From contig NZ_JABEQH010000020.1 in the NCBI RefSeq assembly GCF_014174305.1, forward strand, positions 1 to 64,000: a DNA stretch of 64,000 bases, in the 5' to 3' direction. This document shows, one piece after another, positions 30,907 to 52,443 of this stretch. Source of the DNA: Gluconacetobacter johannae. GTDB lineage: Bacteria; Pseudomonadota; Alphaproteobacteria; Acetobacterales; Acetobacteraceae. Both the position numbers and the translations under genes were made by a program. How positions within the stretch are numbered: the stretch's first letter is position 1; every line of letters starts with the position of its first letter. The notes beneath the pieces are model-generated. The model searched no databases, had not been told where the DNA came from, and was given only the letters and a program-made list of their open reading frames with translations.

Positions 30907-30998
30907 CGCGTTCGCCAAACAGACGGCATCATTTTGCTTTGTGGGATCCGCAGGCTTGCGCTCTGTGGGGATGACAGCGGGAAATGATGGATTTCCGG

Positions 30999-31053
30999 GG
31001 GCTCCATGGTGGGCGCACAAGGACTCGAACCTTGGACCCGCTGATTAAGAGTC
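30999..31053. repeat. attL (55-bp direct repeat, displaced tRNA-Lys 3' half)
   Basis: Identical to 52360-52414. Bases 31007-31053 are the complement of the tRNA-Lys 3' half through the anticodon loop, including CCA; identity stops right after the anticodon (GAGTC). Confidence 0.93.
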
Positions 31054-31174
31054 TCGAAATCTGCCCTGACAGCGCCCGACAGGGCCGGACGCGGACCCCT
31101 GAAAATCGGCAGATAGAAGCCATTTTTGTTGCAAGTCATCAGACTTTCGATGACACTCCCGGACAACGAAAGAC

Positions 31175-31202
31175 GTTCTGCGGGGTCCGCTACGGGTCCG
31201 CA
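31175..31202 (+). repeat. 28-bp direct repeat near the left end (possible integrase arm site)
   Basis: The same 28 bp, starting GTTCTGCGGGGTCCGC and ending GGGTCCGCA, recurs at 52286-52313 just inside attR. In the excised circle the two copies would flank the core, as arm-type integrase sites do. GGTCCGC occurs twice within each copy. Confidence 0.6.
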
Positions 31203-31232
31203 GCACATCAGCAGATTCCGGGCGCACCACGC

Positions 31233-32435
31233 ATGGCAGGCTTCAAATTCACTCTTCGTTCCGTCGAGTCGGCCGTCTGTCCGCCCGACAAGAAGGACGT
31301 GCTGTTCTTCGACACGACGACGCGTGGCTTCGGGCTCCGCGTATCTTCGTCCGGCGGCAAGATGTTCCTGGCCCAATATTCGGTGGGGAAGGCCAAGCGG
31401 CGCGTGCCGCTCGGAGCGTTCGGGGTGCTGACCATTGAGGAGGCGCGCGCGCAAGCCCGGGCTGTCCTTGGCGAGGCAGCCAAAGGCGGCGACCCCATGG
31501 CTGAGCGCAAAGCCATGAAGAAGGCCGAGTTGGTAGCCGCCGCCGACGCCTCGTTCACCTTCGAGACCCTGGCGACCAGTTGGGCAGAAGCCCGCGAAGG
31601 CGAGCGGCGGGAAAGCTACCTGAACGAGGCCAAGGCTGCGCTCCTGCGGGCCTTCCCCGACTGGCGGAAGCAACCGGCCAGCAGCATCACCGTCGCAGAC
31701 GCCGTGAAGGCGCTGGATGCGATCCGTGAGGCCAAGAGTGTCGTGACCGCCAACCGGGCACTGGCCTATGCGCGGGCGGCCTATGGTTGGGCCGTGAAGC
31801 GGCAGAAATTGACCATCAATCCATTCCAGGGTCTGGAGCGCCTGGGCCGCGAGCAATCGCGCGAACGCGTTCTGACCGTGACCGAATTGCGGGCGATCTG
31901 GGAGGCGTGTGGCAAGATCACCCCTACGCTGGGCGCCTATGTCCGCGTCCTGATGCTGACGCTCCAGCGGCGAGAAGAAGTCGCGTCGATGCGGTGGGCG
32001 GAGCTGGACGACCTGGAGAATCCGACAACCTGGACCCTGCCGCGGGAGCGCGCGAAGAACGGGCGGACGCATGTCGTCCACCTGTCCGCTCCGGTGCGGG
32101 AGATCATCCGCGCCCTTCCCCGTATCGAAGGCAACCCCTTCGTGTTCGCCGGCCGGGCCAAGGGATCGATCGGCGCCTATAGCTACGCCAAGAATGCAAT
32201 CGAGAAAGAGATGGCGGAACAGAAAATCACTCTGACCGACTGGCGCCTGCACGATTTCCGGCGATCTGGCGTGACCTGGCTGGCCACCCATGGCGTGCCA
32301 CCGCATGTGGCCGACCGCATCTTGAACCACGTCAGCGGCACGATCAGCGGCGTGGCGGCGGTCTATCAGCGGGCGGAATTCCTGACTGAGCGGCGCGATG
32401 CACTAGATCTTTGGGCGGGAGCGGTGGTGCAATGA
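31233..32435 (+). CDS. int: Tyrosine-type site-specific integrase (P4-like)
   Basis: The 400-aa integrase has an N-terminal DUF4102-like arm-binding domain (FFDTTTRGFGLRVSSSGGK) and a catalytic domain with the first Arg in LTLQRREEVASMRW, Lys in the AKNGRTHVVHL turn, His-x-x-Arg in LHDFRRSGVTW (near residue 339), His in ILNHVSG and the nucleophile Tyr near residue 378 (VYQR). It would integrate and excise the element at tRNA-Lys. The ATG at 31233 follows attL and the 28-bp repeat. Its stop overlaps the next gene by 4 nt. Confidence 0.95.
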   Translation: MAGFKFTLRSVESAVCPPDKKDVLFFDTTTRGFGLRVSSSGGKMFLAQYSVGKAKRRVPLGAFGVLTIEEARAQARAVLGEAAKGGDPMAERKAMKKAELVAAADASFTFETLATSWAEAREGERRESYLNEAKAALLRAFPDWRKQPASSITVADAVKALDAIREAKSVVTANRALAYARAAYGWAVKRQKLTINPFQGLERLGREQSRERVLTVTELRAIWEACGKITPTLGAYVRVLMLTLQRREEVASMRWAELDDLENPTTWTLPRERAKNGRTHVVHLSAPVREIIRALPRIEGNPFVFAGRAKGSIGAYSYAKNAIEKEMAEQKITLTDWRLHDFRRSGVTWLATHGVPPHVADRILNHVSGTISGVAAVYQRAEFLTERRDALDLWAGAVVQ

Positions 32436-47720: not shown

Positions 47721-48473
47721 TTAAGCAGCAAACTGGTTAGCCACCAGACGCACCTTCACAAAAACAAATGCCCGCGGATGATCCGGCCGTCCGTTTAGGC
47801 GCTCTATGACAGCTTCAACTTGTCGTTCGTTTAGCCAAGAGCGAAATGCCTTAGCTTGCAAGCGATTGATGTTACCAATCTTTTCTCCACCCCTCGTCAC
47901 CATCACAGCGTTTTCGTCATAGGAATTCTCGGGCTCATCGACGATGACAACACGATCGCCGACCCTTGGCGGGGAAGATAGAGTACTCGCATAATGCCGA
48001 TATCCAGCGATCTCCAGCATCAAATCCAGATTAGCACCTTCTGTATCGAAAGGATTAACAACAGAAAAGCCATCACTAGGGAGCTTGGCCTCTGTCATGG
48101 CTAAAAGCGCAATGTCCGAGAGAACAAGATCAGGGGCAAGACGAAATAACTTCTTATATGCATCGAAGTCTGGTCGACTACGGGGCGGCAGCCGACGTAG
48201 TAGAGCGTCGACAACACCCTCCGTATGCAAAGACCGCTTCTGATTAAATGCCGGATATCCAGCATAACCTAGTTCTCGGATACGCTCGATCGTCTTACCA
48301 CTATTCAGTCGCTTGAACTCCTCAGGGTCATCAACATAACGAAGGCTGAGACCCGCGGGATCTGGCAAAAGTTCGGCCACAATCCATCGAAAGCGTTCGT
48401 TAAAGTTTTCAGGTGCTTGCCACGCCAAATAGAGCTTCTTGGGATTCGCGACGTGTTGGATCCAGTTTTCCAT
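47721..48473 (-). CDS. HIRAN-domain protein
   Basis: The 250-aa protein has a C-terminal HIRAN domain (about residues 153-243): EIAGYRHYAS, GDRVVIVDEPENSYDENAVM, and EKIGNINRLQAKAFRSWL. HIRAN domains bind DNA 3' ends or damaged DNA and occur in remodelling and repair proteins. The N-terminal 150 residues are unrecognised. ATG 48473 has GGAGG 5 nt upstream and lies 1 nt from the HipA-like gene stop, so they form one operon. GC content is well below the surrounding genes, indicating separate acquisition. Confidence 0.8.
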   Translation of the reverse strand: MENWIQHVANPKKLYLAWQAPENFNERFRWIVAELLPDPAGLSLRYVDDPEEFKRLNSGKTIERIRELGYAGYPAFNQKRSLHTEGVVDALLRRLPPRSRPDFDAYKKLFRLAPDLVLSDIALLAMTEAKLPSDGFSVVNPFDTEGANLDLMLEIAGYRHYASTLSSPPRVGDRVVIVDEPENSYDENAVMVTRGGEKIGNINRLQAKAFRSWLNERQVEAVIERLNGRPDHPRAFVFVKVRLVANQFAA

Positions 48474-48474
48474 G

Positions 48475-49392
48475 TCAGCCTCCCAAAATGGCACCTAAAC
48501 GCTCCTGCCGCAGCCCGAGGAGCGAACGAACGAATGCGGCACGCTCTGGTGTGAACGAGATGTCTACGGAATAGCTGCAACATTCTTGCAGGATGTCGTC
48601 CACGAGCGATTGCCCGAAGCGAATCATATTTTGCATGCTTGTTCCAGCTTCAGGGTTCGCCTGTACCAAAATTTCACAAAGGTCAATATGGGGTGTGCCC
48701 TTATCCGCGTCCAGAACCCAAGAGCAGTGATGGGTGCCCTTGGATACATATCGTTCGAGTTCCCTCACCCCCCAGCCCTGGATTTTGCTATCGTTGTGCT
48801 CGTAGCCGAGGCTAGTGCCATTGTCGAACAGAGGCGCCATCGTTAGGCCAACCTCAGGCTCGTTCAGGAATCCCCAATTTTCGGGATGTCGGTCAGAGTT
48901 ACCTATCAACGTGTCAAAGGCGATTGTCTTTGCCCACCAATCGACCGCACTCCATCCATATCTTGCCCCTAGCAATCGGCAAATCCATAAATTGAGCTGG
49001 AGTGAGTGCGGGCGCCCAGTTTTTTGGTCACGTAGTACGCGGGCTAGCATATCCTTGGCATGGATTAGTCGTCGTGACCTTGAGATTGTAGGACCTTGAA
49101 TAAATGACTGCATCAGCACGCCTAGAGCCCCAGTCTCCTGATTGAGGCCGACATGACATGTCGGGACAGTGAGGCCGAGATTTTGCCCTAAGCGAGACGC
49201 TATCATCTCAGACCAAAGCTGATTCGCCTGCCATGAACGCTTGGCTGTCTTGAAAATGTAAGTCTGACCAGCCACAACCCGGCCATCAGTTTCATCGCTC
49301 GGGCAGATCAAAATCTGCTTTGGCTGAGAGCCGATGGGGTGATAGGGGAAATCCTCATCAAACGGCCACTTCTCGACAAAAATAGGCGTCAT
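48475..49392 (-). CDS. HipA-like kinase-fold protein
   Basis: The 305-aa protein has HipA-type kinase elements: QTYIFKTAKR (possible ATP-binding Lys), QLWSEMIASRLGQNLGL, the catalytic loop GNSDRHPENWGF (Asp and Asn, residues 164-175) and the metal-binding APLFDNGTSLG (near 190). It is shorter than HipA toxins and lacks the usual N-terminal subdomain. HipA phosphorylates GltX; this protein's substrate is unknown. It is followed by a HIRAN gene and preceded in the same direction by a small ORF and the permuted tRNA. No intact HipB-like gene lies immediately upstream, only an XRE remnant. Confidence 0.8.
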   Translation of the reverse strand: MTPIFVEKWPFDEDFPYHPIGSQPKQILICPSDETDGRVVAGQTYIFKTAKRSWQANQLWSEMIASRLGQNLGLTVPTCHVGLNQETGALGVLMQSFIQGPTISRSRRLIHAKDMLARVLRDQKTGRPHSLQLNLWICRLLGARYGWSAVDWWAKTIAFDTLIGNSDRHPENWGFLNEPEVGLTMAPLFDNGTSLGYEHNDSKIQGWGVRELERYVSKGTHHCSWVLDADKGTPHIDLCEILVQANPEAGTSMQNMIRFGQSLVDDILQECCSYSVDISFTPERAAFVRSLLGLRQERLGAILGG

Positions 49393-49511
49393 CGGTCGAT
49401 GCCTTTTCCTCGAAGACCATCGAGCCAGTGACTCTCGTCAACCTCATCCGGCCTCTCCAGCACGCTGAACAGCAGCGTCATCTCAAGAGGAATGCCGAAT
49501 TCTCGAGACAA
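49389..49511 (-). CDS. Possible small ORF before the HipA-like gene
   Basis: From TTG 49511 (or ATG 49481) the frame encodes 40 (or 30) residues, with FGIPLEMTLLFSVLERPDEV and DESHWLDGLRGKGIDR, and its stop overlaps the HipA-like ATG (ATGA). The coupling and plausible codon use suggest a translated leader peptide or small partner. It could be the tail of a truncated larger gene. There is no good ribosome site. Confidence 0.4.
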   Translation of the reverse strand: MSREFGIPLEMTLLFSVLERPDEVDESHWLDGLRGKGIDR

Positions 49512-49539
49512 AACGAAAACCCCCGCTCGAAAGCGGGGG
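49509..49539 (-). terminator. Terminator-like hairpin after the permuted tRNA
   Basis: On the minus strand CCCCCGCT and AGCGGGGG form an 8-bp stem closed by TTCG, followed by TTTTCGTTTT. It lies 5-10 nt after the 5' tRNA half and may end the tRNA transcript, or attenuate read-through into the HipA/HIRAN genes. Confidence 0.65.
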
Positions 49540-49544
49540 CTGAT

Positions 49545-49633
49545 GGAAGACCGGCGCTCTATCCGACTGAGCTACCAGAGCCGAAGAAATTGGCGCTCTG
49601 GGTGAGATTCGAACTCACGACCCCCGGTTTGGG
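49545..49633 (-). tRNA. Circularly permuted tRNA gene (glycine-like anticodon, 3' half before 5' half)
   Basis: On the minus strand a 3' tRNA half (49633-49591) comes first: anticodon stem strand ACCGG, variable GGGTC, T arm GTGAG-TTCGAAT-CTCAC, acceptor CCAGAGC, G, then encoded CCA. After a 9-nt spacer (49590-49582) the 5' half follows (49581 to about 49545): acceptor GCTCTGG, TA, a perfect D arm GCTC/GAGC, and anticodon strand CCGGT, then CT. The acceptor strands pair 7/7 and the anticodon strands 5/5, so the halves fold into one cloverleaf. Joining in the loop gives anticodon TCC or CCC, both glycine. No normally ordered partner halves are nearby. The alternative is the middle of a decayed tandem tRNA pair. 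Confidence 0.65.
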
Positions 49634-49662
49634 GTGGGGGCTAACGCCCCAATGCGTTCGCT

Positions 49663-49692
49663 CGTATGCCACGCCATTCGGGTAAAAGTCAA
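49663..49692 (-). promoter_or_regulatory. Candidate promoter of the permuted tRNA transcript
   Basis: On the minus strand TTGACT (49692-49687) is followed after 18 bp by CATACG (49668-49663), about 30 bp before the 3' tRNA half. The style resembles the host tRNA promoters in this window. The -10 match is only 3/6. Confidence 0.45.
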
Positions 49693-49698
49693 GACAAT

Positions 49699-49812
49699 TT
49701 ACGACGTTGCCGATTGCCCCCGGCCCGTGTCCTTCCTCAGCCGCACCCCAGCTCCACCCCCGTTCTCGGCGATGAATTCCACGCCGGCGGTCTCCAGGGC
49801 GGTGCGGATGGC
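49699..49812 (-). pseudogene. 3' remnant of an XRE-family repressor gene
   Basis: The fragment encodes AIRTALETAGVEFIAENGGG then AGVRLRKDTG and stops at 49699. It closely parallels AIRLALEAAGVAFISENGEG in the intact XRE gene at 50221-50604. The HTH-coding 5' part is missing. It marks an old duplication or insertion next to the permuted tRNA and HipA/HIRAN cassette. Confidence 0.65.
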
Positions 49813-49830
49813 GCCAGATAACAATGCACG

Positions 49831-50220: not shown

Positions 50221-50604
50221 TTAAGTGTCCTGCTCTTCGTTTTGCTTCGATGTGCTCGTAACGTTTGCCCTCGAAGGCTTGCATTGAGGGGTTTCATTCA
50301 AAGGTCGATAGCGTTGGCGTTCCTCTTCTGTCCGGGGCCTTCCGAATAATTCCTCATGGATGCTGTCCACACTTCTCTTCATTCGGACTCCAACGCCTTC
50401 CCCATTTTCCGAAATGAATGCGACTCCCGCCGCTTCTAGGGCCAACCGGATAGCGACGAGGGTCCGGGGATGAGGGTTGCGCCGTCCCGCCTCGAAGTCA
50501 GCCAATGTTGCCACAGCAACCTCTGCTTTGCGCGCGAGGTCATCGCGCTTCATGCGAAGCATCGCACGAGCGCCCAGGCATTGCTCAGGTGTCAAATCTG
50601 ACAT
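50221..50604 (-). CDS. XRE-family repressor-like transcriptional regulator
   Basis: The 127-aa protein has an XRE HTH (LGARAMLRMKRDDLARKAEV then AVATLADFEAGRRNP, residues 10-44), then AIRLALEAAGVAFISENGEG and a charged tail. It probably represses the divergent early operon starting at 50735. The ATG at 50604 is preceded by AGGA and a consensus -10. It is the best candidate for the element's maintenance repressor. Confidence 0.85.
   Translation of the reverse strand: MSDLTPEQCLGARAMLRMKRDDLARKAEVAVATLADFEAGRRNPHPRTLVAIRLALEAAGVAFISENGEGVGVRMKRSVDSIHEELFGRPRTEEERQRYRPLNETPQCKPSRANVTSTSKQNEEQDT

Positions 50605-52359: not shown

Positions 52360-52443
<84 letters not shown>

Follow-up and report, generated by a model that had tools for sequence, protein, structure and literature searches.

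The window, by which we mean the whole 64,000-nucleotide stretch of the Gluconacetobacter johannae contig that was analysed, contains a prophage of about 21 kb bounded by exact 55-bp att repeats. A repeat search placed the left copy at 30999-31053 (plus strand), where it is part of a tRNA-Lys(CTT); a repeat search and a tRNA scan placed the right copy at 52360-52414 (plus strand), inside and just past the tRNA-Lys(CTT) at 52443-52368. The tyrosine integrase of the prophage is the listed open reading frame at 30984-32435 (plus strand), at the left end, whose listed start overlaps the att repeat. Among the prophage proteins scanned, which were part of the set encoded between 31.0 and 52.4 kb, no capsid or portal family was seen.

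The element under study lies inside this prophage, 2.8 kb from its right end, between an excisionase-like HTH gene and a HipA_C kinase gene (48475-49392, minus strand), the latter with a HIRAN-domain partner at 47721-48494 (minus strand). PADLOC assigned the kinase to PDC-M03A and its partner to PDC-M03B, which we take to be candidate phage-defence families, and the element stands upstream of this candidate defence pair. By gene organisation the two proteins are HipI-like and HipN-like, respectively. It is in this organisation that the pair resembles the hipIN genes as described in PMC8262856. Immediately upstream of the element is the C-terminal remnant of an HTH repressor gene (49698-49830, minus strand) resembling the intact gene at 50221-50604; this truncated gene end indicates that the area around the element has been rearranged. 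The element was also considered as the prophage's own attachment site and rejected as such, the att repeat being that of the tRNA-Lys(CTT) at 30999 and 52360.

On the minus strand, the element reads as tRNA positions 37-76 with the CCA (49630-49591), 9 nt, and then tRNA positions 1-35 (49581-49546). The 3' half (49591-49630) opens with A37 and A38, which precede the 3' strand of the anticodon stem (49628-49624), and continues through the variable loop (49623-49619), the T arm (49618-49602), the 3' strand of the acceptor stem (49601-49595), and the discriminator G with CCA (49594-49591). A 9-nt spacer (49582-49590), defined from the sequence, leads from the CCA to G1. The 5' half (49546-49581) comprises the 5' strand of the acceptor stem (49581-49575), the D arm (49572-49556), the 5' strand of the anticodon stem (49554-49550), and C32 U33 U34 C35 (49549-49546). 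Sequence, covariance model, pairing, and alignment were used to delimit both halves.

A sequence-only reading of this DNA had placed the 3' half before the 5' half, 9 nt apart on the minus strand, and we find the order and the coordinates as it claimed. Its perfect pairing across the order reversal, 7/7 in the acceptor and 5/5 in the anticodon stem, was likewise confirmed, and with the D stem (4/4) and the T stem (5/5) all 21 of 21 pairs are Watson-Crick. These intact pairs leave no sign of mutational decay in 76 nt, which a recent origin would explain too. The break corresponds to nucleotide 36 of the anticodon loop, and its two ends lie within about one nucleotide of each other. The description of a permuted tRNA gene within a prophage is therefore supported as anatomy. 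No complete tRNA overlapping either half was disclosed by ARAGORN, by Rfam, or by scanning the window for T-arm and D-arm motifs, and neither ARAGORN nor Rfam at the gathering threshold reported anything at the element. The motif scan returned three intact tRNAs, the att copy, the element, and two T-arm motifs (8357 and 11080); it gave no support to two intron-split tRNAs with their outer halves elsewhere in the window.

By sequence, both halves belong to a single phage-type tRNA-Arg(UCU). When they are joined at the break, 65 of 77 positions are identical to those of an intact phage tRNA-Arg(UCU) on an IMG/VR contig (L154) and 55 of 77 to those of the host's own tRNA-Arg(UCU); in the alignment with the phage gene, nucleotide 36 alone is missing. 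The pattern of the 5' half recurred on 3 IMG/VR contigs, in each case within an intact tRNA-Arg(UCU), and a search of 385 genomes of the class found it in one, the element's own; the exact pattern of the 3' half matched no stretch in IMG/VR. Joins tried with encoded letters only gave TCC or CCC on the arginine body. The glycine anticodon proposed earlier does result from such a mechanical join, but a glycine identity was rejected, since the body is of the arginine type and the glycine anticodon arises in no other way. Because nucleotide 36 is not encoded, a simple join does not restore the arginine anticodon either.

These joins bear on whether the halves mature into a working tRNA by way of a circular or trans-ligated intermediate, in the manner of red algae. 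ARAGORN accepted the reassembled halves as a tRNA, in agreement with this idea. Against it, the host draft genome gave no match to RtcB, the one RNA ligase searched for, the encoded joins leave TCC or CCC, and we know of no tRNA-splicing endonuclease of the archaeal or eukaryotic kind in bacteria. The circular intermediate, raised in the sequence-only reading, is thus unsupported, and we consider a working tRNA very unlikely.

Two observations on tRNAs of genome G000 are recorded here in their own right. At C17:62341-62432 (L012:1053-1144, L054) it carries a class II-shaped tRNA with a long variable arm and an arginine ACG anticodon (49 bits), with no encoded CCA and with a terminator-like hairpin close behind. 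Its 47 tRNA matches include no tRNA-Arg(CCT). They also include neither Ile(GAT) nor Ala(TGC), so that some tRNA genes may be absent from the draft.

The flanks of the element were examined for signals of transcription. Upstream lies a weak promoter-like sequence, TTGACT-18-CATACG (49663-49692, minus strand), which agrees at 8 of 12 positions and was absent from a stricter scan that found no promoter between 49300 and 50000. Its total was matched by 248 of 1000 dinucleotide shuffles, 98 of them with a -35 of at least 5/6. The promoter that had been read here is consequently no better than chance allows. Downstream, the strong hairpin with a T-rich tail is indeed present, as a terminator-like structure of 10 pairs (49518-49541, minus strand; terminator scan) that starts after four nt beyond C35, although the shuffles of the same scan contain on average 1.2 terminator-like sites of any quality in that stretch. 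Folding of a 161-nt stretch gave a lowest-energy structure in which the acceptor and T stems form and neither the anticodon stem nor the D arm does. For the 89-nt element alone, the minimum was -29.7 kcal/mol, in a fold that has the anticodon stem and lacks the D arm; the full permuted cloverleaf came to -29.0 kcal/mol.

The sequence-only reading had proposed scoring the rearranged order with a covariance model. For this, we used a permuted-tRNA model, R1, built from 24 of the 31 listed host tRNAs with the anticodon removed, the halves re-ordered, and the element left out. R1 scored the element at 84.9 bits (E 7e-30), whereas no other place in the window exceeded 26.1 bits, which excludes a chance origin of the pairing. 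In 397 family genomes, searched with stricter filters under which weak matches may be lost, R1 matched at E 1e-19 or better in 73 genomes and at 94 places, the element included. Inspection of each of the other 93 places, in two batches, identified 90 as intact tRNA pairs or arrays (28 of 29 and 62 of 64), two as lying at contig ends, and one, in G059, as a Y RNA adjoining Ro60 and RtcB. Not one of these 93 places, the two truncated at contig ends among them, shows a permuted element that carries CCA and has no intact tRNA beside it. Among intact tandem pairs in the family genomes, the highest score was 80.8 bits, below the element's 84.9, and two identical tRNA copies are present at 75 of the 93 loci. 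Cross-order pairing alone proves little, because intact tandem tRNAs, scoring up to 80.8 bits, pair equally well, and R1 alone cannot separate permuted genes from tandem tRNAs. Unlike the tandem pairs, the element is flanked by no intact tRNA and breaks on both sides at nearly the same nucleotide.

These results lend weight to a reading of the element as the leftover middle of a tandem, near-identical pair of phage tRNA-Arg(UCU) genes that has lost its outer halves and whose RNA would have no present use. The prevalence of intact pairs and of identical copies among the R1 matches is in agreement with it, as is the truncated HTH gene just upstream, and PMC3978253 sets out a model in which permuted genes arise by tandem duplication and subsequent loss of the outer segments. 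The permuted order was also not found conserved in the 397 family genomes, 14 genus genomes, or 24 phage loci. Conversely, breaks that nearly coincide in the anticodon loop would be rare for two independent random deletions, a strong terminator-like hairpin follows directly 3' of the 5' half, and the 76 nt are free of decay, even if a recent loss would also fit. An acceptor-junction pattern searched in IMG/VR found 6 stretches, none of them a tRNA, and hence no tandem copy of the element's tRNA. We regard such a relic as a serious contender, quite possible rather than probable.

Searches for relatives returned few candidates. By DNA search, the element was found in 1 of 397 family genomes, namely its own. 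Within the genus, R1 matched in 14 of 14 genomes, but apart from the element no match exceeded 57.5 bits, and the two best were tRNA-Ile/tRNA-Ala pairs. At 24 IMG/VR loci carrying the prophage's virion protein, neither an intact tRNA nor a permuted copy was present within the extent of the locus, and R1 gave two weak matches only, one truncated by the locus end (23.5 bits) and one of 16.4 bits. Relatives of the kinase occurred in 6 of 395 genomes of the order (own included), as well as at 28 genome loci and one viral locus; no permuted element was found at the 28 genome loci, 4 of which offered <2 kb upstream, or at the single viral hipI locus. Related phages with the same permuted order, which the sequence-only reading had suggested looking for, were therefore not encountered in the 24 phage loci and 28 hipI loci. 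The same two sets, which include no close relatives of the prophage, contained no tandem tRNA-Arg(UCU) in this context.

Larger collections gave a similar picture. A DNA search of 50,697 phage records (E <= 10) matched part of the query in 391, always over less than 80% of its length; the best 40 of the 391, judged by their annotations, were mostly annotated tRNAs or tRNA pairs, and some were unannotated. Among plasmids, 1 of 72,556 records matched, over 31% of the query. Single-protein scans gave no relatives of either the kinase or the excisionase-like protein; tblastn found relatives of the kinase in 8 phage records and 1 plasmid record, and the first of the 8 phage records contained no tRNA and no permuted match. 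A generic junction scan of IMG/VR yielded at least 120 stretches, and we examined 80 loci with 102 junctions, of which 84 join two intact tRNAs and 18 do not. Three of these 18 have no intact tRNA on either side: L212, with its junction at the contig edge; L221, where a hairpin follows the junction; and L182. At L182:4050-4163, a phage tRNA array includes two degenerate halves in B-A order (58.4 bits by R1, acceptor stem 6/7). Its 5' half also fits a weak normal tRNA, and the two halves are probably decayed tRNA neighbours.

The kinase loci did disclose a recurrent arrangement. At 6 of the 28 genome loci (L284, L285, L286, L289, L298, and L310), the hipI-like/PDC-M03A kinase gene stands directly downstream of an intact tRNA on the same strand, the T arm lying 121-312 nt before the kinase match. 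The tRNAs are Arg-TCT, Arg-CCT, Cys, Ala twice, and Glu. This upstream slot is the one filled here by the permuted element. A weak integrase match (27.0 bits, cut-off 27.1) adjoins the kinase pair at one of the six (L147, the same locus as L284), and no integrase was found among the other 8 proteins scanned at the tRNA-kinase loci.

Such tRNA-proximal positions are among the features that a relic of site-specific recombination could explain, in which an element using the anticodon loop as its integration site took one unit of a tandem tRNA array along on excision and so came to carry the attR and attL halves next to each other. The break lies in the anticodon loop, which is a common crossover site according to PMC10865867, one end of the 55-bp att repeat of this prophage falls in the anticodon stem of tRNA-Lys, and an excisionase-like gene adjoins the element. 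In addition, a 7-nt direct repeat, AGCCCCC, flanks the element at 49642-49636 and 49541-49535, outside the halves. For this repeat to have served as the core, however, the original tRNA would have needed a much enlarged anticodon loop. Because the break ends share only CCA in the tRNA register, a recombination relic is unlikely, and we give it very little credence.

Bacterial Y RNAs were also weighed. A Y RNA structure (6CU1) superposes on tRNA with a circular permutation, as reported in PMC11472068. The best Rfam covariance match at the element was in fact to YrlA (RF02553), in the order T arm, acceptor, D arm, at 38.4 bits. The element could on this ground be a YrlA member or a close derivative acting with a Ro60/Rsr protein, the more so as the RNAs of Y RNA-Ro60-RtcB loci in two further family genomes (G076 and G059) also fall below the gathering value (46.4 and 34.7 bits). 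The score is nevertheless far below the gathering score of 69, and the match spans model positions 23-85 of 114 only, without the outer stem, compared with 1-114 in G076 and G059. Tandem tRNA loci score similarly, at 26-36 bits in 4 of 5 controls and up to 39.9 elsewhere, and the six tandem loci behind the higher scores were checked and are intact pairs. The outer-stem sequence common to G076 and G059 had no counterpart at the element even when 3 mismatches were allowed, and a search for Ro60/Rsr (TROVE) in the element's own draft genome gave 0 matches at E <= 1. Moreover, the acceptor stem is capped and lacks CCA in the RNAs of G076 and G059, whereas in the element it is open and ends in CCA. 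We therefore did not assign the element to YrlA and think such a relationship improbable. In the two other genomes, the Y RNA-like RNAs lie directly upstream of a Ro60/TROVE gene and RtcB (L321:5567-8996, G076:C154; L381:3659-7295, G059:C179), and contig C43 of G076 (L319) has a second, near-identical one.

The host itself possesses a permuted RNA gene. A two-piece alpha-tmRNA at C16:41114-41453 scored 239 bits; in it, the 3' acceptor strand with its CCA precedes the 5' acceptor strand. ARAGORN reports it as tmRNA*, presumably that program's mark for permuted genes. No match to the tmRNA family (RF01849) was found at the element by Rfam, and the element was not placed in the two-piece alpha-tmRNAs. 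Since the host has this gene, enzymes for a CCA-spacer-5' end layout are likely in place, and the absence of an RtcB match argues for two pieces. Taken together, these two observations imply that a transcript of the element would most simply end up as a processed RNA in two pieces, without ligation.

Our preferred reading, held tentatively and with somewhat less than even confidence, is that the element is a permuted tRNA-Arg gene giving rise to a nicked, two-piece tRNA mimic, perhaps a decoy. In the proposed sequence of events, the element would be transcribed as a unit, RNase P would cut before G1, and 3'-end nucleases would trim to the CCA, as on the host's permuted tmRNA. In the absence of ligation, the product would be a nicked tRNA-Arg mimic in two pieces, tRNA-like in fold and incapable of decoding. 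Its most likely use would be as a mimic or decoy, with an anticodon nuclease or an arginine-tRNA-binding factor as conceivable targets, encoded next to the candidate defence module of the prophage. A precedent is the tRNA-like domain of YrlA, which PMC7790460 proposes as a competitive inhibitor of an anticodon nuclease.

That precedent, the host's processing of such a layout, the perfect body, the coincident breakpoints, and the terminator-like hairpin speak for a function. The lack of a second copy, the weak promoter, the rearranged neighbourhood, folds that do not favour the whole cloverleaf, and the readiness with which tandem pairs produce this anatomy speak for a relic, and the mimic and the tandem relic stand close to each other in our estimate. 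The fuller proposal, in which the transcript of a phage permuted tRNA-Arg gene is matured by the host's tmRNA enzymes into a two-piece tRNA broken at the anticodon, the first proper case in a bacterium or phage and a decoy for cutters or sensors of tRNA-Arg, is possible but rather doubtful as a whole.

If expressed, the element would add a bacterial virus to the algae and archaea as carriers of permuted tRNA genes, illustrate how a permuted gene can work in two pieces, like tmRNA, without a tRNA ligase, and provide a naturally pre-cleaved tRNA with which tRNA-decoy ideas in phage defence could be tested. If it is a relic, it shows the stage that the duplication-and-loss model predicts on the way to permuted tRNA genes.

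Among known systems, phage tRNA-Arg(UCU) genes resemble the element in its body, as the identity with the intact L154 gene illustrates. Those genes have the normal order and the anticodon UCU, whereas the element has lost nucleotide 36 and has its halves swapped. With the permuted alpha-tmRNA (RF01849) it shares the CCA-spacer-5' end layout, and the tmRNA product is in two pieces without ligation, as proposed for the element; in contrast to it, the element has an arginine-tRNA body and no tmRNA match. YrlA resembles it as a permuted tRNA-like domain in a bacterium, with the T arm, acceptor stem, and D arm in the same order, but the element has a full tRNA-Arg body with CCA and a 9-nt spacer in place of YrlA's capped acceptor stem, no outer-stem match, and a genome without a Ro60 match.

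The statement that no bacterial case is established agrees, for permuted tRNA genes proper, with the literature covered here and does not extend to YrlA and tmRNA, of which permuted forms are known in bacteria. Permuted two-piece genes of bacterial tmRNA are described in PMC3978253, a 2014 review has a dash for bacteria under permuted tRNA (PMC4033280), and no permuted tRNA gene of a bacterium or phage is named in the titles or abstract openings listed from the open-licence literature on permuted tRNA. Relative to the permuted tRNA genes of red and green algae and of archaea, the element stands out as a single case, in a bacterial prophage, with no RtcB match and with an anticodon that a simple join does not restore. 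In organisation, it is alike: the 3' half comes first, the stems pair across the reversal, and the CCA side is joined to the G1 side by a short spacer.
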